Below, piece after piece: positions 1,931 through 19,852 of a stretch of DNA of 64,000 nt. A program made the translations under genes and the position numbers. Position 1 is the stretch's first letter. Every line of letters begins with the position of its first letter. The notes under the pieces were generated by a model. That model was not told the origin of the DNA. It did no database searches and saw nothing but the letters and a program-made list of their open reading frames with translations. This stretch comes from Oscillospiraceae bacterium. Its GTDB lineage: Bacteria > Bacillota > Clostridia > Oscillospirales > Oscillospiraceae. The DNA lies in assembly GCA_009777775.1 (NCBI GenBank), contig WRLE01000016.1, positions 1 through 64,000 on the forward strand, written 5' to 3'.

Positions 1931-1960
1931 TTTAACATAATCAACAATCTATATAAAACG

Positions 1961-2001
1961 CACAAAGCCATAATTATCAATGGTAATTATGGCTTTATGT
2001 G
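1961..2001. terminator. hairpin terminator after the AAA-ATPase-like gene
   Basis: CACAAAGCCATAATTA pairs with TAATTATGGCTTT...TGTG across a 7-nt loop, with one bulged A. It lies between the stop at 1930 and the oppositely oriented gene ending at 2068, so it may serve both strands. Confidence 0.65.
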
Positions 2002-2067
2002 ATTTAATCTCTTTGTGAATGAAACGAACATGATAAATTACATAGGTTTATTGCATAAAAAAAGCTT

Positions 2068-2388
2068 TCAATCACGCACTAGCATGAAAATTGCTATTTT
2101 TCCAAAGACGGGAATGCTAGATTCGCTTGTTTTGTAAACTTGGATTAAAGCTTTTATTGCATAGCTATACACAAATGTTGAAAAAAGCAAAAGAAATAAT
2201 TGCATGATAGCAAATGGTCTAATATACCAATCAACTGAACCTCCAGTGATTGACACGAATATAAAAAATAACTGCATCACAATCCATTTACCTGAAAAAT
2301 ACACACCAATACTTACAACAAAGGTGAATACAAGATAGGCAATGCTGCATATTACTTTTGTCACAGGTTTCCATGAAAATGAGTTCAT
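2068..2388 (-). CDS. small hypothetical membrane protein
   Basis: This 106-aa protein has a strong SD (GGAGGT at 2391-2396 on the minus strand, followed by TATTTT and ATG). Three hydrophobic stretches (about residues 10-30, 33-50 and 60-80) suggest three membrane spans with short polar links. No family is recognised. It is divergent from the XRE regulator at 2521, and the roughly 130-bp region between them probably holds both promoters, so the regulator may control it. That link is inference. Confidence 0.55.
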   Translation of the reverse strand: MNSFSWKPVTKVICSIAYLVFTFVVSIGVYFSGKWIVMQLFFIFVSITGGSVDWYIRPFAIMQLFLLLFSTFVYSYAIKALIQVYKTSESSIPVFGKIAIFMLVRD

Positions 2389-2520
2389 AAAATAACCTCC
2401 AATACATTAGTTCATATATTCGTAGGCTCTAGGGTGTTGTGGTTAATGAATAATCGTGATATAAATATGAATGTAGCTTTTGTTCCAACTTATACGATCA
2501 AACGAAAGGAAATTTTCAAC

Positions 2521-2913
2521 ATGACAAATATTCCATCACCAAGCGAATATGCAAAATTCGGTGAATATTTAAAAGAACGCAGGCAAGCACTAGGTAAATC
2601 AATACGCCAGTGTGCTGCTGAGATAGGCATAACGCCAGCATACCTGAGCGACATAGAGAAGGGCAATCGGAATCCACCAGCGAATTATCATGAAATGGTA
2701 TTGAGCGTTCTTGAAATACCAAAAGATCAAGTATACGCGTATTATGACCTAGCTGGTGTAAGCGGAAATAGCAACCATATCGACATTATACCATACATTA
2801 TAGAAAATCCAATTGTACGACTTGCTTTGCGTAAAGCACGTGACAAACAAATCACAAGTGCTATGTGGCAAAAAATAATAGAACATATTGATGAGTTAGC
2901 GGAAGATGCGTAA
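2521..2913 (+). CDS. XRE-family helix-turn-helix transcriptional regulator
   Basis: The protein is 130 aa. Residues about 10-70 form a Cro/C1-type HTH: the segment FGEYLKERRQALG, then the recognition region ITPAYLSDIEKGNRNPP. The C-terminal half (about residues 75-130) has no recognised domain. An upstream in-frame ATG exists at 2434, but AAAGGA at 2505-2510 sits 10 nt before the ATG at 2521, which I chose. It lies just outside the inverted-repeat-bounded island and upstream of the palindrome at 3435-3463. It is therefore a candidate repressor of the island promoter, although nothing in the sequence proves this. Confidence 0.8.
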   Translation: MTNIPSPSEYAKFGEYLKERRQALGKSIRQCAAEIGITPAYLSDIEKGNRNPPANYHEMVLSVLEIPKDQVYAYYDLAGVSGNSNHIDIIPYIIENPIVRLALRKARDKQITSAMWQKIIEHIDELAEDA

Positions 2914-3084
2914 TTTTCGCAAATGCGCATAGTGCTTACTGTATTTGTTGTTAAATCAGTTCAACTGTGTTTGTCAACCGAATTACATACCAAATTGGTC
3001 GCAATTGTAACACAAATCCGACTCTTTTTGATGTGTTTATTATGGAGGTTTTGGTATACGATATATGCTATGTATGCACAAAAA

Positions 3085-3112
3085 GTGTCATTCTGAACGA
3101 AGTGAAGAATCT
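3085..3112 (+). repeat. left copy of the perfect 28-bp inverted repeat flanking the island (repeat A)
   Basis: Begins GTGTCATTCTGAACG and ends GTGAAGAATCT. The exact reverse complement is at 20249-20276. Other copies in the window diverge in the middle. Confidence 0.85.
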
Positions 3113-3317
3113 CATTCCACCAAAACCGCTGTATAGTGAATTAATCAGGATAAGGTTTTGTTAATACAAACTCATTATTATTACACAAACAAAAGATCGA
3201 GCAGATATATAGTTATATAAAACACTAAAAAAGCGTTGGTATACCACGCTTCATTCATCGATTATTACAGTGTTAATATACCTTCCATACTACAACATAT
3301 TATGTAAAAGTAGCATT

Positions 3318-3341
3318 GAGACCCGATCTCAACAGGGTCTC
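3318..3341 (+). terminator. GAGACCC/GGGTCTC hairpin, possible terminator
   Basis: A 7-bp perfect stem with a 10-nt loop, followed by ATTATTT. It could insulate the island promoter from upstream transcription. Confidence 0.45.
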
Positions 3342-3418
3342 ATTATTTCATAATAGGTTGTATATTTTATTTGGTATTTTTATTATCCTATAAAATATGT
3401 GAAAATTTAATTATTTTA

Positions 3419-3446
3419 TTGACAAATAATTTACCTATATTATACT
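3419..3446 (+). promoter_or_regulatory. sigma-A-type promoter of the kinase module
   Basis: TTGACA (3419-3424), a 16-nt spacer, then TATACT (3441-3446). A second perfect -10-like TATAAT lies at 3454-3459 without a good -35. The ATG of the histidine kinase is 54 nt downstream of the -10. Confidence 0.65.
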
Positions 3447-3463
3447 TGATTTGTATAATATAG
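3435..3463. promoter_or_regulatory. 11-bp inverted repeat overlapping the -10 box, probable operator
   Basis: CTATATTATAC (3435-3445) and GTATAATATAG (3453-3463) are perfect reverse complements separated by 7 nt. The left arm contains the -10 box, the geometry expected for a dimeric repressor site. The XRE protein encoded at 2521-2913 is the nearest candidate ligand. Confidence 0.55.
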
Positions 3464-3499
3464 ATTATGTTATGATTGTGACGAGATTGGAGGTAAAGA

Positions 3500-5290
3500 A
3501 TGGGCGAAAAAGAAGAAGAGCAAAGAATGAAAATTCTTAATGCTTTACAGTTAGCATATACAAAGTTTTATGCACGAAATATGTACATTCCAATAAATGA
3601 TGGGACCTTTCCGATTGACTCGTTATCAGCTCTGGACCAATTAGTACACAAAGCAGGTGAAGCAGTAGCAGTTATTTCTAATGAACTCGATATAAAGATT
3701 GATTTGTTTATTCCTGATGAATTACGTATCTTGTCAACAGAAACAATAGTTATGAATAAATTTAGCAAAGATGAATCTAGTTCAAGTAAGTATTCTCGAG
3801 TAGATAAAGACAATGGGGACAATAAACCGGTTCTTGTAACTATTCAAAAGAATAAACTTAAAATAATAGATGGTTGGAGAGGCAAAGAGTCAGATAATAA
3901 TGGGCTATTCGCAACTGATTATCCAGTTGCATTTCTCGTCAGTTTCTCCTCAGAAAATGATTCTGAATGGGGATTGGATGAAATAGAAGATGACATAGAA
4001 CGCAGCGAGAAGCGTACTATGTTTCGTTTTTACCCTCAAATAATACGAAACGCAGTAAATGAAGAATCATATGATACTCACACGAGTCTTCGCCATGCTC
4101 TAGCGAACATATTATGCTCACTTGCTGAGTTTATCAGAGCAAGAGGTATTGATATAATTGCTCAATTCCACTCAAAACGAATGACTTCTTTTACCAGAGT
4201 TACACGACATGAACTATTCCAAAAAATACAAGGTATGAATCAATTACTTGAATCATATGAAGCATACCTTACTAATTATTTTCAAAAAAGCTTAAATACA
4301 CCTATAATTGATAACACATGGGAAAACAATGTATTTCAAGATAATCTAAGGGTCTTTCTCCTTGATACTAAATCCTTTGTAAGAACAACATCGGTTCAAA
4401 TCAATGCTAGTAGATTTGTAGATGGTATCCCTGACCCTGAAATGAGATTCTTTTATCCATATCGTGAATTTATGTTCAAATGGGAATCTATATTTAGGGA
4501 GCTTTGCAAAAATAGACATATTGATGTCGATTTTTCGGAAATTATACGTTTAGCTGATTCGAATCGGCCTCAAATGTATGGTGACCCACAGCAAATTGAG
4601 CAGGTTGTTTACAATTTATTTTTAAATGCGCTCAAATACGCCCATGAAGATACAGTGGTTGAGTTTGACTTAAGGCTCGATGATACTAAAAGAAACTATA
4701 TTTTTGAGGTTACAAACTACAGCACACCTATTCCAACAAATGAAGAAGATAGTATCTTTAATTTTGGTGTTCGTGGATATGAGTGGATGCACGGTGATGG
4801 TAAAGATAATACAGGTGATGGATTAGGTTTACATATATCAAGAGAGATAGCTCGTAGACATGGTGGTGATGTCGAGTTGATAGAAAACTCGCATATTGAT
4901 AATTATAATATCCCAGCTTTATTATTATTGCCATTTATACAAGATGAATGGAAGCATGGTGGTAAGTATTATTATCTAAGGCAACCAAATTGGCAGAATG
5001 AATCTTTGGAATCTGATGCATTAGAGCATAGCAAAAACTTATATAATACAGGTAAATTTAAGACATCAGAAAATATTATTGAATATAGTCTTGAAAATCT
5101 AGTCAGCAATGATTTACTTCGATACATTAAGGCTCGAACTGAGGGATTTAATACTTTATGCGATTTACCTGACTTTTCCAGAGATTATTACTCATTACAC
5201 AAAATGCGAGAGTATTGGAAAAGGATAGATAAACCTACAAACCGTATAACATTTAGAATGACTATACCACATACAAGTAATGAAGAGTGA
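3500..5290 (+). CDS. soluble histidine kinase-like protein (GHKL ATPase)
   Basis: This 596-aa protein has no membrane span or signal peptide. The first 230 residues match no sensor domain I know. A probable phospho-acceptor segment, TRHELFQKI (His about 237), is followed by a helical stretch. The HATPase_c core is at about residues 365-475: N box QVVYNLFLNALKYA, a poorly conserved G1 region, and G2 box GDGLGLHISREIARRHGG. A C-terminal tail of about 110 residues follows. The start ATG has GGAGG 6 nt upstream. It is first in the island and overlaps or abuts the receiver gene by a few bases, so the pair is probably a cytoplasmic two-component system. The signal sensed is unknown. Confidence 0.8.
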   Translation: MGEKEEEQRMKILNALQLAYTKFYARNMYIPINDGTFPIDSLSALDQLVHKAGEAVAVISNELDIKIDLFIPDELRILSTETIVMNKFSKDESSSSKYSRVDKDNGDNKPVLVTIQKNKLKIIDGWRGKESDNNGLFATDYPVAFLVSFSSENDSEWGLDEIEDDIERSEKRTMFRFYPQIIRNAVNEESYDTHTSLRHALANILCSLAEFIRARGIDIIAQFHSKRMTSFTRVTRHELFQKIQGMNQLLESYEAYLTNYFQKSLNTPIIDNTWENNVFQDNLRVFLLDTKSFVRTTSVQINASRFVDGIPDPEMRFFYPYREFMFKWESIFRELCKNRHIDVDFSEIIRLADSNRPQMYGDPQQIEQVVYNLFLNALKYAHEDTVVEFDLRLDDTKRNYIFEVTNYSTPIPTNEEDSIFNFGVRGYEWMHGDGKDNTGDGLGLHISREIARRHGGDVELIENSHIDNYNIPALLLLPFIQDEWKHGGKYYYLRQPNWQNESLESDALEHSKNLYNTGKFKTSENIIEYSLENLVSNDLLRYIKARTEGFNTLCDLPDFSRDYYSLHKMREYWKRIDKPTNRITFRMTIPHTSNEE

Positions 5291-5295
5291 CACAA

Positions 5296-5814
5296 ATGAA
5301 AATGGAACATATAAAACGAGTATTATTAATAGAAGACCAACTTGGACCAAGGCGAATTGCTTATAATTTACAATCATTTGGATTTATCGTTGAATGCGCT
5401 AATAATTTAAATGAAGCGTTTTGGTATCTCGAACTTGATGAAACTATACCAGCTTTTGATGCCATTATACTAGATTTAAATTTGCCTAGTATAGTCAATG
5501 ATTACTTACCTAGCAATGATGGTCAAATGAAAAAAAGAACGATAAATGATCCTTCAGGAATGAACGGATATGAATATTATAAAAGCATTTTTCTTAATGA
5601 GGAAGCCGTTATACCAAATAATAAGAAAACCTTACTAAGTTATGCTACTGAAAAACGTATTGCTTTTTATACTGGATATGGTCACTTAATTAGAGAAATA
5701 GCAGAAAATGATGGTATATCTTTAAATGGTATACCTATATTTGACAAAGCAGATTCAAATTTAACAAGAGAAATTGTAAATTGGATTAATGAGCTTGAAC
5801 CTGTAGAATCGTGA
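5296..5814 (+). CDS. receiver-only response regulator with a long insertion
   Basis: A single CheY-like receiver of 172 aa. It has the acidic start VLLIEDQ, phospho-acceptor Asp in ILDLNLP (about residue 60), Thr in YTGYG, and Lys in FDKAD. About 50 residues separate the acceptor Asp from the Thr strand, much longer than in CheY, so a loop or subdomain is inserted there. No output domain follows, so any effect must come through protein contact or phosphotransfer. A GTG at 5287 overlaps the kinase stop codon (5288-5290); I prefer the ATG at 5296. Either way translation is probably coupled to the kinase. A natural partner is the giant ATPase that follows. Confidence 0.75.
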   Translation: MKMEHIKRVLLIEDQLGPRRIAYNLQSFGFIVECANNLNEAFWYLELDETIPAFDAIILDLNLPSIVNDYLPSNDGQMKKRTINDPSGMNGYEYYKSIFLNEEAVIPNNKKTLLSYATEKRIAFYTGYGHLIREIAENDGISLNGIPIFDKADSNLTREIVNWINELEPVES

Positions 5815-5863
5815 CAATACCAATGTAATAAACATTCTTTTATGAAAGTGACGATATTATAAT

Positions 5864-8800
5864 ATGAATAGATATATTGATTGCCCTGATAACTGTGTTG
5901 CCAGAAATTCATTTTGTGGGTTAGAAAAGCATCTTGAATGTTGTGCGCAATTAAGCGAAAAATATAACTATTTGTTTAGTAGGTGGGTAACAGATAAAAA
6001 GAAATATCAAAGCAAACTAAGTGCAACTACCCACTCATATCCAACTTATAGTCTTCATGATGCTTCACATTCTCAGGAGATTATTGAGTCAATTGAGCGT
6101 CTACTAGGTGAGGACCGTATATGTATGCTATCTCCAACAGATATATGGCTTATGCTAGAATGTGCATACACTCATGATTTTGGTATGCTTATTTCACACC
6201 AGGAGGTTGTTGATGAGTGGTTTAAGGATTTTGATCGTTTTAAAGAGTTTCTGTTAAGTAAGGTACTAGAAAATCGCTCATTGTGGGCACACTTGGAATA
6301 TGTTTTTCCATTAATTGAAGAAATAGCAAATCAAAAAGACATAAACATCGACGACTTAAAGCATGCGTTTTATTTTCGATATGATGAGCAAGATAAGCAA
6401 CAATTATTATCTTTGCTAAGTGCCAAATCTAGTTCTCCATTAAAATTCACAAACGCAATGACATCTGTAATGCAAGAGTATAGACGATCTAGTCATAACT
6501 ATCTTTCTAGTCATAATTATCTTACTATGATTGATGAAGATGACCCAATTGATGCATATTTACATAAGCTAATTGCCGATGTATCTTCTTTCCATGGAGA
6601 GGATTTAAAAGAGCTGCTTACAAAATTTGACAATAAAATTGTTGATGGGTATGGCTCAGACTATGCACATCCACGATTTGTGGCTATTATGCTACGATTG
6701 GGTGATTTATTAGATTTAGCATATGGAAGATTTAATAACCATATTTTGAATGTTAGTGGAAATAATGACAGAAGCTCGTTAATTCATCAAATTAAACATC
6801 ACTTTTCAACGAAATCAGTCAACCCAAAGAGAATTGTTGTTCGTGCTAATTATAAAACTGAGGATATTAAACGATATATTAATACTATTTCAAATGATTT
6901 CAAAGTATTTGAAAATCAGGAATTTGAGCTTGGTATAGAAGCAGCTAAAGCGTTATTAGTCTGGTTGGAATGGTTGACAGAAGAAATTATGTTTCTGGCT
7001 GTAAACTGGATTGAAATAGTTCCTGAAGACTTTAGTGGGTCAATCCCTTTATGTGATTTTATTGTCAAACTTAATGATGATGAAGTATTATTAGATAATG
7101 TCGACTTAAAGTATGAAATAAACACAAAAAGGGCAGCTGAAATTATTGAAGGCGTGAGTATGTACAATTCTCCAGGATTAGTCTTTTTACGTGAGCTTAT
7201 TCAAAATGCAATTGATAGCTCGAAGCGCCAGCTTTTTTATGACATAGAAAATAATGGAGTATATCCATTAACTAGAAATCAAATAGACTCGAATAACGCA
7301 AAAAAAACTAGTACAAATAGATGGAATAATAATCCATCAGATTTGTACTGGTTTTTGTCCGAATTGGGAGAACGTAACATGCAATATCGAATTGAAATAT
7401 CTGTAGTACACGTGAGGGATGAGTCGTGTACCATTAATAATTGTAATGGTATCGAATGTACAAATAATTGTGATTCTAGTGTACAAATAAAAATACGAGA
7501 TTATGGAATAGGATTAGATGATAATCGTTTCAAACATATGAAAAATATTGGAGCTATATATGATGAAGATTTGAATAGAGTGCGACAGCATATGCCAAAA
7601 TGGTTAAGGCCAACTGGTGCTTTCGGGGTTGGTATGCAATCAGTTTTCCGCAATGTAAAAAGCTTTTTAGTGAGGACTGTTTCGTATGAGGGAAATAGTA
7701 GGACTGGAAGAGAGGCTGTTTTTTATACATCGAGAATGGGAGGAGAAATTTACGCAAAACCAATGGATATTGATGATCATAAAGATTTTGGTAGAGGTGC
7801 TGAAATTGTCATCCAGTTTAATGATAATGATGCTAATACTTTTTTACGAAATGCGTATATTGGATCAAATAGAAAATATTACAATATTGATACATTTGTT
7901 CCTAAATATATTCAAATTAGCGAAATTATAAAGAACTATGTTATAGACAATTGTACATATGCTGGATTTCCTATTATCTTTCTTGACCCTGAAAATAAAA
8001 ATACTCAAACACATCACAATAATATATATGGTTTGTTTGGTGATTTTGTTATATCAGTATATAATGGTTCTCATATTTTGGTCAGAGAAGTAGCTAATGT
8101 TAATGATAAACTGACTTATAAAAAAGAGCTTGATGATAATAATAATAATTCGAATGAGATATTTGCATTTTCGTATTGGGATGATGAAAATGCTATTTTA
8201 ATTAAGTATACTGTATTAAAAACATCAAATAATGACAATAAACCGAATATATGGTTTAAAGGTATTAGGGTTAATGAGGAATTTGTATCTTCATTAGTAA
8301 CACTACCTACGATTTTTGGAACACGGTATAACTGGGATATTGATATACATATACTTGGTTTCGAAGCCTCAGATTATTTGGTTGTTAGTCGTGAAGGTTT
8401 TTTGCCATTAAAAGCATCTCAGATATCGAAAATAATCCAAAAAACACATATAGCTTGTATTAAAACGATATTTACTATACTTTTTGACAATTTTGTAGAA
8501 AATAGTTATTTTAATGGTGATAACAAAGCAATTGACAAATTTATTCAAATATCAAAAAATTATAAATTCAGAATGGCATTGTCGAGTATGCAAATGAGTG
8601 GTATAAGTGAATTTGTTAATCAGTTAACAAATGAGTATAATGATTTATTGAATGAATCTACCATTTATACATTAAATAAACGTTCTATTGCACGAATAAC
8701 AAATGTTAAAAACGTTGATATGCTTCTTTGGTACATTGATACTAGTTTTTTTGCAATGTCATCATCTACTTTATCGTTTTGCTCAATATTAAGCAATATT

Positions 8801-9379
8801 TTTGTTTGCGCAGACGCAACATGGAATAGTTATTACCAGATTATTGGTGCTGCTAGAATGCACATAATTAAACTTGAGCCAATATACTTTGAAAATACAC
8901 TAATACAAAATCCTGCAAAAATTATTTATATGCCAGAGATACGAAGTGATTCAAATATATATACTGACATTAGTAGACAAGCATTTCATTTTTATGGTAA
9001 TGATTTGTACGAATCCGCTAATGATATTGTTAGACCGGTGCTACCTGGGATACAAGAATATAAGGAAATTATAGTAAAATCGATTCCAGATGAATTACAA
9101 ACTCCTAGTAACCGTCTTTTTATAAGCTGGACTGTAATGCCATTTACAGTTAGCGAATATGAAAATGTAAAAAATAATAAAAGTTTCAAAAATGCAAGCG
9201 AGCTAGTTTCAGAGTTAGTTAAGTTCCTTGAATACCCTGACAATGTTAGGCTTATTACATGGGTTGCTAATCATTCAGCGACACTTGATATGTCGCAATC
9301 ATTAAATAATAGAATCGCATTGGTTAAGAGTAAGTATCATGAATTAATCGAAAACCTATTTGGAGAATCATGGTATTGA
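5864..9379 (+). CDS. giant HD-domain + Hsp90-like (GHKL) ATPase protein
   Basis: The protein is 1171 aa. An N-terminal HD-phosphohydrolase-like region shows HDASH (about 65), a THDFGM doublet (about 104-108) and RLGDLLDLAYG (about 280), a plausible H...HD...D set for metal binding. A GHKL/Hsp90-like ATPase follows, with N box LRELIQNAIDSS (about 442-453), D-x-G-x-G box RDYGIGLDD (about 545) and lid GAFGVGMQSVFR (about 585). The last 550 residues match nothing I recognise. A Cys-rich patch, CTINNCNGIECTNNC, sits between the ATPase boxes. No membrane span is seen. The SD is weak (GAAAG upstream) and the gap to the response regulator is 49 nt, consistent with one operon. HD + GHKL fusions occur in uncharacterised accessory loci; the substrate is unknown. 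Confidence 0.75.
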   Translation: MNRYIDCPDNCVARNSFCGLEKHLECCAQLSEKYNYLFSRWVTDKKKYQSKLSATTHSYPTYSLHDASHSQEIIESIERLLGEDRICMLSPTDIWLMLECAYTHDFGMLISHQEVVDEWFKDFDRFKEFLLSKVLENRSLWAHLEYVFPLIEEIANQKDINIDDLKHAFYFRYDEQDKQQLLSLLSAKSSSPLKFTNAMTSVMQEYRRSSHNYLSSHNYLTMIDEDDPIDAYLHKLIADVSSFHGEDLKELLTKFDNKIVDGYGSDYAHPRFVAIMLRLGDLLDLAYGRFNNHILNVSGNNDRSSLIHQIKHHFSTKSVNPKRIVVRANYKTEDIKRYINTISNDFKVFENQEFELGIEAAKALLVWLEWLTEEIMFLAVNWIEIVPEDFSGSIPLCDFIVKLNDDEVLLDNVDLKYEINTKRAAEIIEGVSMYNSPGLVFLRELIQNAIDSSKRQLFYDIENNGVYPLTRNQIDSNNAKKTSTNRWNNNPSDLYWFLSELGERNMQYRIEISVVHVRDESCTINNCNGIECTNNCDSSVQIKIRDYGIGLDDNRFKHMKNIGAIYDEDLNRVRQHMPKWLRPTGAFGVGMQSVFRNVKSFLVRTVSYEGNSRTGREAVFYTSRMGGEIYAKPMDIDDHKDFGRGAEIVIQFNDNDANTFLRNAYIGSNRKYYNIDTFVPKYIQISEIIKNYVIDNCTYAGFPIIFLDPENKNTQTHHNNIYGLFGDFVISVYNGSHILVREVANVNDKLTYKKELDDNNNNSNEIFAFSYWDDENAILIKYTVLKTSNNDNKPNIWFKGIRVNEEFVSSLVTLPTIFGTRYNWDIDIHILGFEASDYLVVSREGFLPLKASQISKIIQKTHIACIKTIFTILFDNFVENSYFNGDNKAIDKFIQISKNYKFRMALSSMQMSGISEFVNQLTNEYNDLLNESTIYTLNKRSIARITNVKNVDMLLWYIDTSFFAMSSSTLSFCSILSNIFVCADATWNSYYQIIGAARMHIIKLEPIYFENTLIQNPAKIIYMPEIRSDSNIYTDISRQAFHFYGNDLYESANDIVRPVLPGIQEYKEIIVKSIPDELQTPSNRLFISWTVMPFTVSEYENVKNNKSFKNASELVSELVKFLEYPDNVRLITWVANHSATLDMSQSLNNRIALVKSKYHELIENLFGESWY

Positions 9380-9452
9380 TACTAACCTAAAGAGATACGC
9401 ACCATGCCACATATTTAGTATTGATTTGCTAGGTTACGAATCTATTTTGTAA

Positions 9453-9482
9453 AATAGCATATTATATGAAAGGAATGCTATT
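9453..9482 (+). promoter_or_regulatory. hairpin holding the SD of the membrane-protein gene
   Basis: AATAGCAT (9453-9460) pairs perfectly with ATGCTATT (9475-9482). The SD AAAGGA (9469-9474) lies in the loop and the ATG starts at 9486. This may limit or regulate initiation. Confidence 0.4.
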
Positions 9483-9485
9483 GCA

Positions 9486-10235
9486 ATGAAATCGAATAAA
9501 ATACGAACATTTAAATTGAGTCCAATTACAGCATCGGTGATTTTAGGTATGTTTACATTTATTATTGGCTGGTGTTCGATGTTGGTTTTCTGGATATCAT
9601 ACGGGAAACCAGCTGATCGAGGATTTACATTTTATGTTTCATTTTTGTTTGGTGATTCGATATTTTTACCAATTCTAGCTGGTTCGCTTCTTGTGTATGT
9701 TAAATTAACTGGTGTAAAACATGATAATCAAGCTCCTTCATTGTTTCAAAAACGTATTGCATGGATTGTAGCTATAATCAGTGCATTAATTGGTGCTATC
9801 ATACAAGGTAGTTGGTTACTTGATAACCAAATTGAATTAAACTGGACTATACCAAATCCGCATGAATTTAATGGTGCAGGATGGTGGCATGCAGCATTTT
9901 TCGTATTCTATTTTGCTATTATGGGTTATCTCTTAGTAAGATTTATTATAGCAAGATATATAGGAAGATTGCATATTGAAACAAACTCACAAAAGAATTC
10001 ATTATATTTAATTTGGTTTGGTGCTAGCGGTTATGCATATTTACGACAACAAGAAAGTCTTGGTATTAGCTTTGTAAACTGGAGACTCTTAGTCATGATT
10101 CCTTCTGTTGTACTTGTTGGTTTGCTTGTTAGCACGATGCTATGTAAACGACGTCCAGTTATTACCGACTTTAAAATAATATTAGCTAGCAGTATTTCTG
10201 CATATGGAATTGCTGCAGTTTCTGTAGGTCTTTAA
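9486..10235 (+). CDS. N-terminal part of a split polytopic membrane protein
   Basis: A 249-aa hydrophobic protein with about six predicted spans (for example SVILGMFTFIIGWCSMLVFW and IAWIVAIISALIGAII). It ends at a TAA (10233-10235). The same reading frame continues without another stop for 561 codons to 11918, and the codons just after the stop encode a further hydrophobic segment (EPWEILISIVFALMATR). One ancestral protein of about 810 residues interrupted by a single nonsense codon is therefore the simplest reading. No family is recognised. It follows the HD/GHKL gene by about 106 nt and may be its membrane partner. Confidence 0.65.
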   Translation: MKSNKIRTFKLSPITASVILGMFTFIIGWCSMLVFWISYGKPADRGFTFYVSFLFGDSIFLPILAGSLLVYVKLTGVKHDNQAPSLFQKRIAWIVAIISALIGAIIQGSWLLDNQIELNWTIPNPHEFNGAGWWHAAFFVFYFAIMGYLLVRFIIARYIGRLHIETNSQKNSLYLIWFGASGYAYLRQQESLGISFVNWRLLVMIPSVVLVGLLVSTMLCKRRPVITDFKIILASSISAYGIAAVSVGL

Positions 10236-10286
10236 TATAATAATGTTGAACCATGGGAGATTCTTATTTCGATAGTATTCGCTTTA

Positions 10287-11918
10287 ATGGCAACACGTTT
10301 GGTGCCTGTTTGCCAATCTATTAGAAATATTATTATTTCTGTTGAAATTTTAGTTGGCACTACTGCTTTTTCGACAATCTTTATTTTTATACAAATTCCA
10401 ACAATTACACAGTCAATTACTACAATGATTGTTTCAGCCGCTTTATTAATAGGAAATCTTGTGTTTATTGCCGATAGTTACCTATTATTTGAACAGATAA
10501 TATTACATACAAAGCAAAAAGAACGCTTAAAATGGGTTATTTACTTTTGGGCACCTATTCTATTATTCTCGACAATGCTTCTCAGTATAGCTCTAGATAG
10601 CAACTCTAGATTCTATGTTTGGCGCGAATGGTTACTTTCGATAGTATTAGGGACATGCATTCCTATTTGTCAAATCATGTTTACTGTTTTTGCTACTTTC
10701 CCTGAAGAGTACAATGAAATAAGGTATTCATCAATAAATAAGAATACTGCATATTTAAGAATTGTTATTATGGTCGCTTGTGTAGTTGTATTATCAATTC
10801 TATATGTTGGTCATTTTTCTTTAAATTTTTCTCACACATCATTAAAATATGTTTTCCTGCTTCTACCACTCCTAGCTTCATATCTAATTATGAAATTAAT
10901 GCAGAGACATAATAAAGATCAAACAGATTACATAAATTCTAGTATTAATTCTATGTTTAAAACATGTGTTCTACTGTTTGTTGTAGCTCTTGCTTATGCC
11001 TCACTATTTATGCTAATAAAAGGTTTACGAGAGCCAATCTATTACTCTTGGTGGGATATAATAATACCTCTACCAAGCATTGGTACGACATTCTTTATAA
11101 TTAATGGAATAGTTTATAACGGTAGATTATTATGTGGTTTTCGTTTGAAAAAAGTAAAAGAAGACAAAGCTTTTATAATTATTCTAGTTGAAATATTATT
11201 TGGTTGCATTTGTATTTTCCCATATTCGATACTACCATCTAAGCTACCTAATAATGTAGAATTTTCAGTATTATCACCATTAATAGGGATTATAGGACTC
11301 TATTTTGCTATCTGTACACTTCCTCGTAGTACTATACAAGCGTTAGGATGCTCATCAAAGGGAAATGTTATAGAAAATGCAGGTATGGATGGTGTTATTC
11401 AAGATACTTTCAATTCATTTATTATGATTGCCATTGCAGGGCTTCTTGTGATACACCTCATTGAAATATTGGCAGTTTTCGAAAACTTATATAAGACAAT
11501 TGCGTTTGTATTAGCTTATGTTAGTGCTGTTATAGTAATAATTGGTTTTACTCTAGAAAACAATTCCAAACATTATAAAGTTACATATATCGAAGGGATT
11601 TTTATGGAACTAGACTCTAAAGGTGTTGATATTACGTATGAAAAGTACACATTAAAAAAACACTTAGAAAACCAAGCTTTAATATTATATGTTATGATGT
11701 TTCCATATTCTATACTACACTTTATTAAATTTTTAATAGAAAAGTTAACAGACTCAAGAAATGCAGGAATTCCACTTAGGATTTCTGCCTATAACGAATT
11801 CCTACTTCGTCTTCCAGGACTGAATAATTTTGCATCGGATGAAAAGTATAAAGACTCTTTTGACCAAAGACTGTTACCTGTTGTTTCACGCAACAATAAA
11901 TTATTTGATGGTAAGTGA
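10287..11918 (+). CDS. C-terminal part of the split polytopic membrane protein
   Basis: 543 aa from the first in-frame ATG, with roughly ten or more hydrophobic segments and a soluble tail of about 90 residues after the last. No SD of normal spacing precedes this ATG; GGGAGA at 10255-10260 is 26 nt away. Independent translation is therefore doubtful unless it restarts after the upstream TAA. It shares frame 3 with 9486-10235. If the stop is real and fixed, this half is probably not made and the gene is a recent pseudogene. A sequencing error or strain polymorphism is the alternative. Confidence 0.6.
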   Translation: MATRLVPVCQSIRNIIISVEILVGTTAFSTIFIFIQIPTITQSITTMIVSAALLIGNLVFIADSYLLFEQIILHTKQKERLKWVIYFWAPILLFSTMLLSIALDSNSRFYVWREWLLSIVLGTCIPICQIMFTVFATFPEEYNEIRYSSINKNTAYLRIVIMVACVVVLSILYVGHFSLNFSHTSLKYVFLLLPLLASYLIMKLMQRHNKDQTDYINSSINSMFKTCVLLFVVALAYASLFMLIKGLREPIYYSWWDIIIPLPSIGTTFFIINGIVYNGRLLCGFRLKKVKEDKAFIIILVEILFGCICIFPYSILPSKLPNNVEFSVLSPLIGIIGLYFAICTLPRSTIQALGCSSKGNVIENAGMDGVIQDTFNSFIMIAIAGLLVIHLIEILAVFENLYKTIAFVLAYVSAVIVIIGFTLENNSKHYKVTYIEGIFMELDSKGVDITYEKYTLKKHLENQALILYVMMFPYSILHFIKFLIEKLTDSRNAGIPLRISAYNEFLLRLPGLNNFASDEKYKDSFDQRLLPVVSRNNKLFDGK

Positions 11919-12363
11919 TTTTAAACAGTCTTTAAACAAACAAGGTATTATCAATTCAAACTGTATTAGTTTGAACATATTGAAACAATGATGTTTGATG
12001 GACAAGCCCAACCTTATATTATATATCGTATACTAGTGTATCTAATAATTCGCAGTGGTATAAAATATTGTAATCTATAACAATCTTTAATAGTACTATG
12101 ATGTAAAGATGTAAAAAATTTGAGAACACAAACAAACTGGTTCAGTTTTGTAAACAAATATACGATGAATATAATATAACATGGATTTTTACATGAGATG
12201 CTCTTTTATCCTGTAAAATTTATGAAGTGTTTGATACATAAAATATTAAATTATATTCTTCTTGATGTATGAGCCTTTCCTTGAATGACTATACTCATAA
12301 AATAAGATTATAAAGTATTTATAATATTTACCAAAATTATACTATTTTTTTTTAATTAACCTA

Positions 12364-12392
12364 TTGACATTGGAATATATTATCTATAGAAT
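12364..12392 (+). promoter_or_regulatory. strong sigma-A-type promoter of the second module
   Basis: TTGACA (12364-12369), exactly 17 nt, then TAGAAT (12387-12392). Transcription would start near 12399, about 240 nt before the GTG at 12640, giving a long leader RNA. Confidence 0.7.
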
Positions 12393-12449
12393 GACTTGGG
12401 TATTGCTAGATGCTGCAGTTTATAGCTATACTCTTGAGGAGGATACAAA

Positions 12450-12509
12450 GTGAAGAAAATCGTATGTAGTGCCTTTATATACGATTATCATAGCTTTTTC
12501 GAGAGATAA
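12450..12509 (+). CDS. putative leader peptide, 19 aa
   Basis: GAGGAGGA (12436-12443) lies 6 nt before a GTG that opens a 19-codon frame, MKKIVCSAFIYDYHSFFER, ending in TAA. The SD is the strongest in the island yet serves only this tiny frame. It lies between the promoter and a set of alternative hairpins. This is the layout of translational or transcriptional attenuators such as erm and tet leaders, but the peptide resembles none I know. Confidence 0.5.
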   Translation: MKKIVCSAFIYDYHSFFER

Positions 12510-12519
12510 GTGTCTTGAA

Positions 12520-12585
12520 GAGGTTGTGTAGAGTTTTTGCACACCTCATTGAGGGCTTTCTTTATTTGTGGGATTTCTCTTATGT
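12520..12585 (+). promoter_or_regulatory. competing hairpins, possible attenuator
   Basis: GAGGTTGTGT (12520-12529) can pair with ACACCTC (12541-12547) with one bulge. The same CCTC (12544-12547) can instead pair with GAGG (12551-12554), and that GAGG can pair with CCTC near 12581-12584. The mutually exclusive arms start 11 nt after the leader stop codon. Further down, ACTCCC (12598-12603) could mask the SD AAGGGGG (12625-12631). Confidence 0.4.
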
Positions 12586-12639
12586 ATGCTCCTCTAAACT
12601 CCCAATGTTATAAATGGGATTTAAAAGGGGGCATTACTG

Positions 12640-15003
12640 GTGGTAGAAATCATCAAAGACGAAGCTTCTTTTGCCAATGACAATGAAATGTATCATGCTA
12701 CGAAAAAAGATGCGAAAGTATCATATGATGATATATTAAATGAACTTAAAATTGCAGATTGGGTGAAGATGGAAGCACCACCAATCGATGGAGAATATAT
12801 TTTAAGGAAATCTCTCGAAAACTTAGATTACGAGATTTGGAACAAAATCACACTGGTTGTAGATGAGTTTTTATCAGCTCGTTGTAGTTTGTTGAAAAAT
12901 ATTGATGTGGAAGGCATTATAGAAGGAAATAATGCTTCTATTTCTAGTATGATGAAATTTCTCCCAGTATACCTGCAAACCCATGAAGATATGTTAAAGC
13001 GTTTGTTATCGTTAGCAGATAATCCCGATTATGCTGACGATATTTTTGATAGTGGAATTATTGAAGCAGCTGTTAATTTTGATTTTGATATTGACGAATT
13101 TGATGAAAATATAGATAAACGGAGATATCCAAAACCATATTTTTTCGCACCAATAGTTCTTGATCAGTTGCTATTAGCAGACACGATTAGAAAAAAGCAC
13201 AATGAAATGGTAAGCCAATATACAGGAGACTTTGCACAATGGTTAAAGATGCTCGCAATGGCAAATCTGCGGCAGTCTTTTGTATTTGCTACTCGTTATA
13301 ATAATAAAACTTATCGGTATAAACTTGGTGTTGAAGCTGGACCAACTGCGACTCGTCAAAAAAGTTCTGAAATTCATTTAGCTAATTTATCGAGACACAT
13401 TATTTCCGAGTATTATTCACAAGCTAGTTATTTAAATACTAATAAAAACAGTGGTAGAGCGGAATTTAACTTTGCATTGATTGGTGACATTGATAGAGAA
13501 GAATTACGACAATTATGCATTTCACTAGACCAGGATTTTGAAATTGTTGAAATAAAAACAAGCATTAGAGTGGATGTCAAACTGTCTGTGTACACTAACA
13601 CTAACAAAGATACAGATACAGATACAGATACAGATACAGATATCGAAGGATTACTTAATAATCGTAATGCTAATTTCGAATACATTACCATAGTAAAAGA
13701 GGATGCAGTTAAGAAAAGTGGCAATGGGTTAAGATTTGACAAGCTCGATGGACTGGAAAAAAAGCTTCTAAGCGAAGGACACAATGCTATATTGTTTTTT
13801 GATAATTCAGCTTTTTACAAAGTTCGTACTCTTACTACTGATAAGTTAAAAGAATTCAATGCGAAGGTATATCAAGATAGTCACCGAAATCGCCCATTAT
13901 GGATTCAACGAGTGCAATTAATGCAGTATGAAGCATCAGGCGAGTATGGATTTTCTAGATGCAGGAGATTCAATAATCGATTGTTCAAGCAAATACGAAA
14001 AATGGCTGAACGACTTAATAGCAGTAACGGAGCGTCAACATACATAGTGTTGTCTGGCTCTGATTGTGCTCAATTCATTATGGAGTGCCCTGAAATATAT
14101 CAGGAGTATGCAAGCAGCGATGAATGGGATATGGCTACTCGTGTTACAGTATTAAGGGTATCGACTTCAATGAAAAAAGAACCTATTGTCCTTAATCCAG
14201 ATGATGAGGAATATGGTAGAGCTGATTACAATACTTTAAAGCTTTCTCCTTCACAAATATTTCGTAGAATAATAGAACCAGGAAAGTATCAATCTTTATT
14301 TAGTGATGATGCTGTCAATAACAAAAATTATAAATCTGATAAGATATTTAAGTTGCTTAAGGATCTCATAATCCAACTCGACTTTTCTAGAATAAAAGAT
14401 AATGGTAATAGTATAGTGGAGTTCGCATTATTTAAATTTGATAATAAAACAAGTGATCCACCCAAAATTGTATTAGAAAATCAAGTAGGTTATGAAGCCA
14501 AAGTCATATCTCTTGTTAAAGGTTTCCTTTCAGCTGCATTTTCTTCTGTAGCAAGTGACACCAGTATACCATGTACTATTAGCGACTTGTTTAGCTCTGC
14601 TGTAATGCGCTACGGAACTCATGTGAGCTCTGTTGTATTTCTGTATTTCTATAATACAGGCAAATTTAATCGTTCTTCAGTAAAAATAGAATATAAAGAT
14701 AATATGGAATATATACCAAGTATAGAAGGCCCCGAACGTCGAGCTGAAATCGCTGCAGGGGGAGATATTTATGCTTTGGATGGAGTAGTGAGGACACTAG
14801 CGATACCTGGATATGATTTCGGACATGAGTATGTTGTAAAAACAATGTTAAAGAGAGCACTTGCAGGAACCTCACGGGAAGGAGAGGTAGATAGAGTCTT
14901 CAACTTCTTAAAGGAGTGGATATCTGAATCTTGTAATGAAATGGGCTTTTCTACATACTATCTTAACATTAATGCGAAAAAGGCATTGTTAAATAATACA
15001 TAA
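12640..15003 (+). CDS. 787-aa protein of unknown family
   Basis: I do not recognise a domain. It is a soluble, acidic protein without signal peptide or membrane span. It starts at GTG with AAGGGGG 8 nt upstream. A run of Asp-Thr repeats (about residues 324-335) comes from a GATACA microsatellite and separates an N-terminal region from the remaining 450 residues. It has its own terminator at 15013-15044. It is the first gene after the attenuator-like leader and precedes the ParA-like and HD genes on the same strand, so it is probably part of their system. Confidence 0.6.
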   Translation: MVEIIKDEASFANDNEMYHATKKDAKVSYDDILNELKIADWVKMEAPPIDGEYILRKSLENLDYEIWNKITLVVDEFLSARCSLLKNIDVEGIIEGNNASISSMMKFLPVYLQTHEDMLKRLLSLADNPDYADDIFDSGIIEAAVNFDFDIDEFDENIDKRRYPKPYFFAPIVLDQLLLADTIRKKHNEMVSQYTGDFAQWLKMLAMANLRQSFVFATRYNNKTYRYKLGVEAGPTATRQKSSEIHLANLSRHIISEYYSQASYLNTNKNSGRAEFNFALIGDIDREELRQLCISLDQDFEIVEIKTSIRVDVKLSVYTNTNKDTDTDTDTDTDIEGLLNNRNANFEYITIVKEDAVKKSGNGLRFDKLDGLEKKLLSEGHNAILFFDNSAFYKVRTLTTDKLKEFNAKVYQDSHRNRPLWIQRVQLMQYEASGEYGFSRCRRFNNRLFKQIRKMAERLNSSNGASTYIVLSGSDCAQFIMECPEIYQEYASSDEWDMATRVTVLRVSTSMKKEPIVLNPDDEEYGRADYNTLKLSPSQIFRRIIEPGKYQSLFSDDAVNNKNYKSDKIFKLLKDLIIQLDFSRIKDNGNSIVEFALFKFDNKTSDPPKIVLENQVGYEAKVISLVKGFLSAAFSSVASDTSIPCTISDLFSSAVMRYGTHVSSVVFLYFYNTGKFNRSSVKIEYKDNMEYIPSIEGPERRAEIAAGGDIYALDGVVRTLAIPGYDFGHEYVVKTMLKRALAGTSREGEVDRVFNFLKEWISESCNEMGFSTYYLNINAKKALLNNT
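13609..13644 (+). repeat. GATACA hexanucleotide microsatellite inside a gene
   Basis: Five perfect GATACA units followed by GATATC. The unit is two codons, so copy-number change would lengthen or shorten a Thr-Asp linker without a frameshift. Confidence 0.85.
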
Positions 15004-15012
15004 GTATATTGT

Positions 15013-15044
15013 AAACCGGACTGCGTAAGCCGTCCGGTTTTTTT
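15013..15044 (+). terminator. rho-independent terminator after the 787-aa gene
   Basis: AAACCGGAC (15013-15021) pairs perfectly with GTCCGGTTT (15032-15040), followed by TTTT. It separates the 787-aa gene from the ParA-like gene, which therefore needs readthrough or its own promoter. Confidence 0.85.
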
Positions 15045-15162
15045 GTGCTTAAAGTTTGTAAAGCATGTGTAAAATGTTCGTAATTTATCAGAGTGCATTA
15101 TACATATAATTCGGATTCTTTTGGTATATTTTATATAATTATTTTTTGGAGGATACGCAGAC

Positions 15163-17118
15163 ATGCCTAATAAAACAAGTCGTTTACATCTCTTTACATC
15201 AGTAAAAGGAGGGAGTGCAAAGACTTCAACAGCACTACTATATGCGCATGAGTTATCTTTGCGTTATGAACACAAAGACAAAAACGGAGAGACAATATTC
15301 CCAAAAGTCATTGTTATTGATGCGGATGTACGTGGGACGTCAATGGAAACCGTTTTATTGGGGAAACAAAAGGATGTTGGTATAGAATACTTAAATGAAG
15401 GTGATGTAGATACCGATAGTACAGAATACTCTATTAGAGACAACAAGTATAGTTTTGATGATTACGGCAGTAGGAGATATTATACAAATGCGATTATTGG
15501 ACTAAGAATGTCATCGGAGCTTGTATGGGAAGATGGTTTTATTACATATGTTGCTGCTATGAAAGATGCAACGGATACTACTGCTCAGGAATTTGAATTA
15601 GAAATTAATGAAGCGGAAGAAAACGATATGACAAATGATGATGAACCATTATTAGACACTCTAGAACCAGAACAAAATGTTATCGATCAGCAGGGGGCGT
15701 TCTATGTTGCTCTAGCTAATCAAAACCAAGGTAGCAAAGACAGGTTTGGTACAGATGTAGCATCAAGAGATGGAGCAGCTGTTTCTACCATGTATTTTCA
15801 GACATGTTTTAAAACATTGCTTGATTCACTCGATAAGATGTCATTAAATGACGATGGTGGATATTTAGGATTCGACTTTATTTTAATAGATATGTCACCA
15901 GGCCATGATGAATATGTTCGCTGTATAATTGAGCTATGTCTTTCGAAATATACAGATAAAAAAGTGACAAGCGAACGTCTAAAAGAGCATAGAGATTATA
16001 AAGAGGAGAGATTGCTTAACACATGGGAACCTACTATACATAGTATGACATTACCAACAGAGCAGCATTTTTATCCTGCACTTAATCATTTGCTAGCGAT
16101 AATCGGATCAACTAGACTAACAACAAACCATATGAATCGAATTAATCTGACGGTAGTTGATTCATATAATTATGCGAAAATACCAGAGGAAACAAATCAG
16201 AGATCAGATGAACAAATAACGAAAGAGTTACACAAGCTAGTATATACTTATTTATTAGGTGATTATGGTATATTACGGAGCATATCGATACAGAGACGAA
16301 ATTCTATCGTAATGAAATTACGAACAATTCCGTATATAGAAGCTTTTGGCAGTCTAACATTACCAGTTTTCGATATAGCTAATACAGGGGGAGTGTTGAA
16401 AAAATCAATTGATAGTGTATTACGTATGTTTAGTGGATTGGGTGAGCATACAGACTCAAAAGTAATTAAACAGCTAGGAGGGGATTATTACTTCGATACT
16501 GACTTAGTAGCTAGTATCATACCATATACCGTATGTGTTTATTGTGTAAAAATGACAAGCAGCATAGAACGGCTCAATCCTGAATGGGATAGCAACAACT
16601 CGCCAATAATAACATTAAGAAACAATGATGGCGAAGAATGTGAATTAATAGAAAATGCTCTTAGTTCAGATAAAAAAATCAATATGCACACATTCCACCT
16701 TACTAGTAGTGAATTTGATGTGTTCAAAGTCTTTTATAATGGTAACGATACAGGAGCAGAGATAAATGAATATGAGCAAAATATTACATTAAATTTTCTT
16801 ACGATATTTTTTAGACTCAATGATACTACTGAGTCTTCCTGTTGCACTATAAATGCTTTTTATAACGATATTGAAATCGAAAGTGGAGATATTGTACTTG
16901 GTACAAGAAATTTTGAAATAATTATTAAATGTCTCAATATTGAAGAATACAAACTGACCTGGACAGGTATACCTGAAGGGACTTCTGTTAAAAATGATAA
17001 TTCGTTGCGCGTTAGCATAGATCGTCTTAGAAGGAGTCTTGATGTAGAAATTATTGTAGAAAAGATTGATACGAGTGAATCAAGAGATAATGAATCAGGA
17101 GGCGATGTTAATGACTAA
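15163..17118 (+). CDS. ParA/MinD-like ATPase with long C-terminal extension
   Basis: A 651-aa protein, more than twice the size of ParA. It has the deviant Walker A of the family, KGGSAKTST (about residues 15-23), VIVIDADVRGTS (about 50-61) and a Walker-B-like FILIDMSPGHDEY (about 239-251). An acidic insertion fills residues 125-190. The C-terminal 150 residues or so look like an all-beta domain with no recognised family. The SD is GGAGGA, 9 nt from ATG. The stop overlaps the start of the next gene by 8 nt, which argues for coupled synthesis. ParA-type ATPases position cargo on nucleoid or membrane; here the cargo may be the HD protein. That is inference. Confidence 0.7.
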   Translation: MPNKTSRLHLFTSVKGGSAKTSTALLYAHELSLRYEHKDKNGETIFPKVIVIDADVRGTSMETVLLGKQKDVGIEYLNEGDVDTDSTEYSIRDNKYSFDDYGSRRYYTNAIIGLRMSSELVWEDGFITYVAAMKDATDTTAQEFELEINEAEENDMTNDDEPLLDTLEPEQNVIDQQGAFYVALANQNQGSKDRFGTDVASRDGAAVSTMYFQTCFKTLLDSLDKMSLNDDGGYLGFDFILIDMSPGHDEYVRCIIELCLSKYTDKKVTSERLKEHRDYKEERLLNTWEPTIHSMTLPTEQHFYPALNHLLAIIGSTRLTTNHMNRINLTVVDSYNYAKIPEETNQRSDEQITKELHKLVYTYLLGDYGILRSISIQRRNSIVMKLRTIPYIEAFGSLTLPVFDIANTGGVLKKSIDSVLRMFSGLGEHTDSKVIKQLGGDYYFDTDLVASIIPYTVCVYCVKMTSSIERLNPEWDSNNSPIITLRNNDGEECELIENALSSDKKINMHTFHLTSSEFDVFKVFYNGNDTGAEINEYEQNITLNFLTIFFRLNDTTESSCCTINAFYNDIEIESGDIVLGTRNFEIIIKCLNIEEYKLTWTGIPEGTSVKNDNSLRVSIDRLRRSLDVEIIVEKIDTSESRDNESGGDVND

Positions 17119-19852
17119 TGATAGTTTCAAAATTATTTTTAGTGAAGCAAAATTTTTAGAATTTATGCAAAGCTTTAGGTTAGAAAAAGTTAATGATGAA
17201 TTAATCACTACCATCGATGATAATGAAAGTAATGATATGTTTACAGCGTCTCCTGAAAAAGCTTTTAATATCAATCACAAATCATTAATTGAGGAAATGG
17301 ACTTCTCTAACCCAATACATGAAGTAGCATTTCATGTGTTCAAGCAACAAATAATGAATAAGTATAATGTTGATATGCCTTCAAAATTTATTGAAACTGA
17401 TGCTGAAAACCTGCGAAGTATGTACGAAATGGTTTATGGAGAAAATGAGAATAAACGAGAATCATTATATTCATTTCGGTTGTCAGAAGAAATTTTATTA
17501 CCTAATTTTGTTGGTATATCATCATTAACACGCTTGTTTAGTGAACGATATATGCATTATGAATGGAATATGCATACAGAAATTAAAGCAACTGCAGATA
17601 ATGAATTTGATTGGTCATATTATCGTGATCATATGACACATCAAGTGCGTAATGCATTTACTGCTATTGAATTGCTAGATAAGCTTACCGTTAGATATGA
17701 AAACCGACAAGATGGAGCTGCTACTGATGTGAAACCTATTTCACTAATTAAAACAATGTCTGAGCTATTATCAGGTCAAGTAAGCTATGGCGATGGAGGC
17801 GCAACGCATATTTCTAGCTATTTTATTGAATCTGTACGCCGAGCAGTAGATGATATAAGATCAAATCTACCTCTTTTTAAAGTGTATGATGACTTGCTGA
17901 AGGTTGTTTATAAATCAACTAATAATAAGTCCATTAAAGTGATTAATGAACGTAAATATAACGTTTTTCTTAATGACCGACTTAGTCAGCATTTTAGTGA
18001 ATACATTATTAGGGCTTCTCTTGTTATGGCAGCTCTATTTCATGATTTCGGATACCCAATAGAATATACTCGACAACAATCGCAAATGCTTGGTAAACTT
18101 ATTGATTCTGCGCATTATTTTATTAGTGAATCACACAGATTTGATGAAATATACAGTCTGCTTTCTGATAGTATACTATGTAGACTCGTAGGTAAAGACG
18201 AAATCAGAAAAGTTTTTTTGGAGACAAATTCTGGAGTTACACATGGGTGTCTCTCTGCATTGGCGTTTTTACTATTCTTTTATGAATCTGGGCAGATTCA
18301 CGGATTACCTGCCGAACAAAGAGCTGCTGTTGAATTAGCTGCTGTTATTATTTATGATCATACTCTTTGGTATCCAAGTATGCCGAAGTATTCTGGTGAT
18401 GATAGTGTACCAAAACTACAATACATAAAGCCATCTAATGTCCATAATCCTTTATCTTATTTTTTCCGATTCTGCGATGATATTCAAGAATGGGAGAGGC
18501 TTTATTTTAAGCTTTCAGATAACGAAAACTTGCGAATATGCTCAGATTGTCATTTACCGATAGTGAGTTTTGTACCTGAATATAGCCATGTAAGTAATAG
18601 TGAAGCCGAAAACAAGCGAGATAGAAAAATTCGTAAATTTCTTAAAGAAAATCCTGCGTATATCTGTGAATGTGTAAGACGAACGCATCCTTCTTTAAAG
18701 GAAGTGACCAAGGCATTATTTGATGTTGCTAGTGCAGCTAATAGTAAAGAAACAAATTGGTCTAATATGCTTGAGCATATAGGAAAGACTGTTATTGCAT
18801 CAGATATTGAATTCAGACGTATAAACATTGTAAATGCTTGTAAGACTGTTGAGTTTATACCATTACAGGATCAATTTGGGTCTGTGAAAATGGAGATATT
18901 GAATAATTCAATTTTTTTACCTGAATCTGTGAAAGCGAAAATGATACCTGTTGATGGTATGAAACGTTCACATGCTCATTATCTTCTACATATTAATTAT
19001 AATCATTATAAAATGCTTCAGATGGCAATTATCGACCCGAATTTTGCTTTTTTTCGTATGAAGGAAATCAACGAAAACTTGAAACCTCTCCTAGAAAGAC
19101 AGCTTTCTTTCCCAGATATATTGGTTTATACTGTTGCATCTATGAATCCCATAACACTGAAAGTACGAATAATAGAACGATTTCTTTTAATGAATGATAT
19201 TAGTATTAGAGAATTAAAATCAATGCCTGAGCCTGATATTAACCGGATTATAAAATATATAATGAAACCAGCCTCATTAAATATGAATAGTAGAAATTTT
19301 AACATATTTTATGCCTGTATAAAAATTTATTTAAATCTTTTATGTAAGTCATATGAGATTCACTCCACGAATCAAACTGATCATGTATTGCTTGGGAAAA
19401 AACCAATTACTAGCAATGAATTTAAAACTGAAATAGAGCAATTAGACGTAAGCATAATAGATGCACAAAGGCCAGGGCTAATAGAATCATATCGAAATAA
19501 ATTTGGAAATGCTCTCGATATGCTGATTCAAGAATTTTTTAAAGACGAGTGTAAAATGATAGGGTATACCGAAACTATAGAACCTGGAATCAAGTCTGGT
19601 CTACCTAGCAAATACTATGAACAATATTGGGACAAAAACAGCGCAAAACGCATTCGTACTGTTGTTAGTACATATTGCAGGTCAACAAATTATGTTTACT
19701 CTCTATATAATGAGGTTGAAGTGGAGAACAATTCTTTTAAGTATATACATACCCTTGATGTACATTCAGATTTAACGATATTTCATGCTCTTGATAGGTG
19801 GATTACGCTAGAAGAAGAAAAATTAACGCTACCAGATGAAGGACAACAATAG
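17111..19852 (+). CDS. 913-aa HD-domain protein with putative zinc site
   Basis: The central part has HD-phosphohydrolase-like features: YYRDHMTHQVRNAF (about residues 174-187), ALFHDFGYPIEY (about 312-323), IIYDHTLWYPS (about 415-425) and FRFCDDIQEWER (about 452-463), a plausible H...HD...H...D metal set. A CSDC ... CEC arrangement (about residues 477-520) may bind zinc. The last 390 residues are unrecognised. AGGAGG at 17097-17102 is 8 nt before the ATG at 17111, which I chose over ATG 17105. The start overlaps the ParA-like gene's stop. HD enzymes act on nucleotides or phosphodiesters; the substrate here is unknown. Confidence 0.7.
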   Translation: MTNDSFKIIFSEAKFLEFMQSFRLEKVNDELITTIDDNESNDMFTASPEKAFNINHKSLIEEMDFSNPIHEVAFHVFKQQIMNKYNVDMPSKFIETDAENLRSMYEMVYGENENKRESLYSFRLSEEILLPNFVGISSLTRLFSERYMHYEWNMHTEIKATADNEFDWSYYRDHMTHQVRNAFTAIELLDKLTVRYENRQDGAATDVKPISLIKTMSELLSGQVSYGDGGATHISSYFIESVRRAVDDIRSNLPLFKVYDDLLKVVYKSTNNKSIKVINERKYNVFLNDRLSQHFSEYIIRASLVMAALFHDFGYPIEYTRQQSQMLGKLIDSAHYFISESHRFDEIYSLLSDSILCRLVGKDEIRKVFLETNSGVTHGCLSALAFLLFFYESGQIHGLPAEQRAAVELAAVIIYDHTLWYPSMPKYSGDDSVPKLQYIKPSNVHNPLSYFFRFCDDIQEWERLYFKLSDNENLRICSDCHLPIVSFVPEYSHVSNSEAENKRDRKIRKFLKENPAYICECVRRTHPSLKEVTKALFDVASAANSKETNWSNMLEHIGKTVIASDIEFRRINIVNACKTVEFIPLQDQFGSVKMEILNNSIFLPESVKAKMIPVDGMKRSHAHYLLHINYNHYKMLQMAIIDPNFAFFRMKEINENLKPLLERQLSFPDILVYTVASMNPITLKVRIIERFLLMNDISIRELKSMPEPDINRIIKYIMKPASLNMNSRNFNIFYACIKIYLNLLCKSYEIHSTNQTDHVLLGKKPITSNEFKTEIEQLDVSIIDAQRPGLIESYRNKFGNALDMLIQEFFKDECKMIGYTETIEPGIKSGLPSKYYEQYWDKNSAKRIRTVVSTYCRSTNYVYSLYNEVEVENNSFKYIHTLDVHSDLTIFHALDRWITLEEEKLTLPDEGQQ

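Follow-up and report, generated by a model that had tools for sequence, protein, structure and literature searches.

A ParA–HD gene trio whose relatives have SspF/SspG-type operon partners is a candidate new defence unit in an Oscillospiraceae genome

Introduction

At the left end of contig WRLE01000016.1 from an Oscillospiraceae bacterium, a run of same-strand genes combines a histidine kinase and a receiver with two HD-type proteins and a ParA-like ATPase, which raises the question of whether these genes make up one undescribed system or several, and of what such a system would do. An earlier note on this DNA had proposed a single device, plausibly one of nucleotide signalling or defence, in which a phospho-relay acts upstream of a ParA/HD pair. 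We analysed the locus within a window of 64,000 nucleotides and searched for relatives of its genes in other genomes, plasmids and phages. The reading we favour, to which we give an even chance, is that two independent modules lie side by side. The second would be an immune-type unit of three genes and the minimal version of a system composed of SspF, an SspG/MAD7-like protein, a g6-like protein, ParA and an HD enzyme, which would work like SspFGH/DndFGH.

Results

Positions 3500–19852 are filled by eight long open reading frames, all on the forward strand, of which g1 to g5 form module 1 (3500–11918) and g6 to g8 form module 2 (12640–19852). The earlier count was seven genes; the eighth emerged because two membrane proteins, g4 and g5, had been merged. 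GC content is lowest in this interval (32.4%), but the AT-richness reported relative to both flanks is chiefly a contrast with the right one (42.6% in 19853–64000, vs. 35.6% in 1–3418). A 720-bp gap holding a promoter-like site separates the modules. The best two such sites of the region, each matching 11 of 12 consensus positions, lie 5' of g1 (TTGACA-16-TATACT at 3419) and 5' of g6 (TTGACA-17-TAGAAT at 12364–12392, forward strand), just where separate strong promoters had been proposed, although the total number of sites (103) equals that expected from shuffles (103.5). A terminator-like hairpin with a T run 3' of g6 (15013–15044, forward strand; dG −17.2, z −4.2) sets g6 apart from g7 and g8. 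We also observed a long leader before g6 (12392–12640) that contains a short open reading frame and hairpins; an Rfam scan of the region, leader included, returned no match.

Upstream of g1 lie an AAA-ATPase_like/PDDEXK_9 gene (266–1930) and an HTH regulator gene (2434–2913), the latter scored by PADLOC like CapH/HTH_VI regulators of defence loci. The AT-rich stretch with both modules was apparently acquired. For module 2 we take this to be so because g8 is absent from 148 near relatives, including 18 congeners, and because the module is AT-rich. Because the window starts at contig base 1, the island is truncated on its left, and in an empty-site comparison around topB the flanking genes showed no synteny in six congeners.

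Module 1 opens with a soluble histidine kinase (g1, 3500–5290, 596 aa), which has no predicted transmembrane segment, carries its H-box histidine at H237 (TRHEL) and matches Pfam HATPase_c over residues 361–461 (1.5e-13). Its N-terminal half has no detectable family, with a single marginal match among 199 sampled genomes. The start of g2 (5287–5814, 175 aa) overlaps the g1 stop; its product is a receiver without an output domain, whose Pfam Response_reg match is weak (0.027) and in which the phosphoacceptor D63, T129 and K154 are all in place. The large g3 protein (5864–9379, 1171 aa) joins an HD-CE domain (PF24391, 1e-30, 107.7 bits vs. a curated cut-off of 27) to an Hsp90-class GHKL ATPase (Hsp90 N-domain profile, 1.8e-17), and retains both the HD residues and those of the N-box and G-box. 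Module 1 ends with two membrane proteins, g4 (9486–10235, about 6 predicted transmembrane segments) and g5 (10287–11918, about 13), neither of which was assigned to a family by domain scans. The two GHKL ATPases and the bare receiver that had been read from the letters are thus borne out, as is the first of the two HD proteins. We considered g1 and g2 as a Response_reg_2/HEF_HK pair (PMC8011034) and rejected this, as neither Pfam family was matched.

Relatives of g3 with the same domain order, HD-CE followed by an Hsp90-type ATPase, occur in Eubacterium eligens (WP_012740570, 31% identity over residues 20–595) and in Pantoea and Hymenobacter replicons. Whereas g3 lies between a kinase–receiver pair and two membrane genes, these relatives stand alone, several of them in P2-like prophages, and no neighbour in 18 fetched HD-CE loci was matched by g1 or g2. 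In two loci the HD-CE/Hsp90-type gene has the P2-type replication gene A on one side and the portal gene on the other (L044:9998-12736 and L045:10013-12769), and a third, L046, also has a gene-A relative. In P2, old and tin occupy this interval; both are lysogenic-conversion genes directed against other phages, and the spot is known for phage-exclusion genes. A search for copies of the prophage gene in E. coli found none, and HD-CE was not met by name in the literature searched. Across the loci and genomes searched, the gene set of kinase, receiver, HD-CE/Hsp90 protein and two membrane proteins had no relative.

Detocs consists of a kinase, a bare receiver and a nucleosidase-type effector. Module 1 likewise has a kinase, a bare receiver and a third enzyme, but in place of a nucleosidase that third protein is of the HD-CE/Hsp90 type; no nucleosidase family was matched by the window proteins, and no Detocs name appeared among the PADLOC matches. 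Module 1 stands as a candidate in its own right, possibly an HD effector gated by phosphotransfer.

Among g4 to g8, the ParA-like P-loop of g7 (15163–17118, 651 aa, with an extra C-terminal region) gave the only credible match to Pfam, PADLOC or NCBIfam. That P-loop (NCBIfam 5.7e-4; PHROG ParA 6e-5) agrees with the ParA-like ATPase of the earlier note, and the g7 profile matches the structures of Soj and of PF-32 ParA. Across 15 sequences of the family, K15, K20, D53 and D243 are invariant, corresponding to the deviant Walker A lysines and the Walker A' and B aspartates. The Walker A motif of g7 itself (residues 15–21) reads KGGSAKT, with alanine where nearly all relatives have glycine (G19).

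The second HD protein is g8. Its probable start, ATG 17111, follows an AGGAGG and overlaps the g7 stop, and its end is at 19852; the listed frame starts at TTG 17066, from which its residues are numbered here. In 21 family sequences the putative metal ligands H189, H192, H326-D327, H393, H432, D471 and D472 are invariant, as are the four cysteines of an inserted zinc ribbon (C492, C495, C534, C536). In structural comparison the fold looks like the HD type of class I phosphodiesterases (Z reaches 11.8, a value within the range of helical models, with an rmsd of 5.0 over 237 residues), while Foldseek alone gave no significant match. A Cas3-HD assignment was rejected, its matches all being sub-threshold. 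From their conserved residues, both the ParA protein and the HD enzyme look active.

The third protein, g6 (12640–15003, 787 aa), was placed by profile–profile alignment. The proteins c4, c8, c16 and that of L024 form one family, and g6 joins it with a hhalign probability of 97.3, E 2.4e-11 and a score of 97.6, compared with at most 24.4 for 30 shuffles, 22.9 for reversed g6 and below 20 for the other window proteins tested. In an AlphaFold model (pTM 0.71), the central region (about 244–511) adopts a predicted Rossmann, methyltransferase-like fold. Its best structural matches are nearly all methyltransferases of class I or proteins with the related GRAS fold, with Z of 8–10, just slightly higher than unmatched models give, and rmsd mostly of 3.5–5.5; Foldseek alone found nothing significant. 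D388 is invariant, and the family alignment contains no recognisable SAM loop or NPP-type motif. We set aside two further leads on g6: matches in genomes G159 and G244 (E 8e-4) were taken as chance, falling where read in a receiver-GGDEF protein, and a match to a designed DARPin-type chain was not confirmed by the family profile.

A first genome scan with g7 returned no relatives, and the first relative of g8, a single distant one (1e-28) found among 398 genomes of the phylum, lay directly behind a ParA gene in genome G191. With an alignment of g8 and this relative as the query, about 85,000 species were scanned, which identified at least 22 loci (the method needs exact short peptides, which makes this a lower bound), mostly in Lachnospiraceae and other Clostridia, with one in Rikenellaceae and one in Calditrichales. 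Two of them (L040 and L041) hold only fragments of the g8 gene, leaving 20 complete loci besides the window, or 21 with it. ParA adjoins HD in all 21, and ORF clustering together with profile alignment places a g6-family protein in each operon. Thirteen loci (L027–L039) are of an A type with the order c2–c3–c4–ParA–HD; the remaining seven (L020–L026) and the window are of a B type, in which a 690–840 aa protein accompanies ParA–HD, in L026 from further downstream in the same operon. The distance matrices of the third protein, ParA and HD correlate with r of 0.94–0.96 over 17 loci, a level reached in none of 2000 permutations, and the correlation also holds within the B type alone. Because of this adjacency, the shared g6 family membership and the correlated matrices, g6–g7–g8 is a real, jointly inherited trio.

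None of these 20 other complete loci contains a relative of g1, g2, g3, g4 or g5. The expected co-occurrence of kinase, HD-GHKL and ParA–HD genes was thus not observed in these loci, and the phospho-relay proposed upstream of the ParA/HD pair is unsupported. What survives of the undescribed system is module 2, an undescribed conserved unit, rather than one seven-gene device.

The A-type operons begin with genes that point toward a known restriction system. The c2 protein is SspF in all eight A-type members tested (3.1e-20; DptF model 2.9e-10), and c3 is SspG-like in five members (3.5e-11) and MAD7-like in two (7e-8). The likeness to MADS is confined to the C-terminal part of MAD7 (1.7e-8), the 34 bits of c3 falling far below the MAD7 model cut-off of 410, and no other MADS component was recognised. 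The A type thus shares with SspFGH/DndFGH (DptFGH) an SspF/DptF-type NTPase followed, in the same order, by an SspG/MAD7-type protein, and in the position of the third component it has c4 (about 980 aa), ParA and HD. The third gene product is 1535–1776 aa long and bears a DUF87 or FtsK ATPase both in DptFGH from a Priestia plasmid and in haloarchaeal plasmid relatives that carry FtsK, and SspH of SspFGH resembles FtsK (PMC8092258); in the trio loci, by contrast, HerA/FtsK translocase and restriction-endonuclease domains were not seen, and ParA and HD genes stand instead. Comparison of c4 and g6 with DptH and two FtsK-bearing SspH-like proteins gave no significant similarity (hhalign probability below 10). 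The third protein of the trio is likewise large, and the methyltransferase-like model of g6 may parallel the inactive (eroded) methylase domain that DndH contains (PMC10853773), a parallel and not a proof.

Neither SspF/DptF nor SspG/DptG (triple wHTH) was found among ten scanned window proteins (266–19852). DndC exceeded its cut-off in one of the 13 A-type genomes, on another contig; DndFGH has also been reported decoupled from phosphorothioate modification genes (PMC10853773). Literature searches found no SspFGH/DndFGH variant with ParA and HD. Through its operon partners in other genomes, module 2 appears related to SspFGH/DndFGH-type restriction. This keeps part of the proposed defence link, now by way of SspF and SspG/MAD7 in other genomes; the whole gene set, on which that link had been placed, does not recur.

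We also observed other arrangements among the plasmid relatives. In two haloarchaeal plasmids (L113:6772-16601 and L114:6774-16604), a DruA-type (DUF4338) gene directly precedes SspF-like, SspG-like and FtsK genes, with a DEAD helicase gene nearby, an apparent Druantia/SspFGH composite. In the Priestia plasmid (L112:4079-17562), genes for a Dam methyltransferase and an AlwI-type endonuclease lie directly before dptF, dptG and the DUF87 gene.

Discussion

Under the reading we favour, recognition of incoming nucleic acid, or of a signal of infection, would fall to an SspF/SspG or g6 part. ParA, through ATP-dependent dimerisation and DNA binding, would then gather the complex on DNA, doing the job of the captured HerA/FtsK translocase in DndH/SspH, and the HD metal enzyme would cut a phosphodiester of a nucleic acid or a nucleotide. 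More tentatively, ParA–HD with its methyltransferase-like partner could represent an immune machine of a new class: ParA, an ATPase of the chromosome-segregation type, would take the role of a HerA/FtsK pump in seizing incoming DNA and would pass it to an HD nuclease, working with SspF/SspG, with CD-NTase/CYTH or alone; we think this possible, if doubtful.

The substrate of the HD enzyme is where the strongest rival enters. Nearly all of the best 50 structural matches to g8 are cyclic-nucleotide phosphodiesterases, and the Rikenellaceae operon (L026:8769-17177) runs ParA, HD, CYTH (4.8e-18), a protein of 342 aa without assignment, a SMODS/CD-NTase-like gene (4.6e-5) and the third protein, an arrangement that would link the trio to nucleotide-synthesising enzymes. 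The HD protein might accordingly hydrolyse nucleotides or act as a phosphodiesterase, clearing a signal or draining a nucleotide pool; ParA would be the switch, and DNA would not be the target. Against this, likeness of fold does not settle the substrate, and CYTH and SMODS genes occur in one of 21 loci whereas the SspF/SspG pairing occurs in 13. As for CBASS, the window has no CD-NTase, and L026 alone has a SMODS-like gene. We regard nucleotide signalling as rather unlikely.

ParA proteins also partition plasmids, and the genes flanking the trio loci vary and include transposases, as might be expected if the trio served to maintain or transfer a mobile element instead of defending the cell. 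Such a partition-like role seems improbable: a ParB domain is missing from all eight window proteins in Pfam scans, plasmid records encode neither g7 nor g8 and phage records do not encode g8 (searches of phage, plasmid and viral collections gave no close relative of g6, g7, g8 or g1), and the conserved partners are SspF/SspG. Least probable is one eight-gene system in which kinase and receiver gate HD-CE/Hsp90 at the membrane with the ParA/HD trio downstream, as the shared strand, adjacency, similar GC and a promoter-like site before each block are outweighed by recurrence in none of the 20 other trio loci or the 18 fetched HD-CE loci, the 720-bp gap with its promoter-like site and the terminator-like hairpin within module 2.

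Returning to the SspFGH/DndFGH-like reading, the trio is a rare and undescribed unit, and a testable candidate for a new defence unit because its relatives share operons with genes of a DNA-restriction (anti-phage) system. The trio and the A-type operon are small gene sets, of three and five genes, that could be tested by phage and plasmid challenge, and the HD-CE/Hsp90 gene, which stands by itself in P2-like prophages, offers another simple candidate. According to PMC10853773, systems of the DndFGH type capture HerA/FtsK ATPases that come from DNA segregation and from mobile elements; a variant that appears to be built on ParA and HD would extend this idea of ATPase capture to another segregation ATPase.
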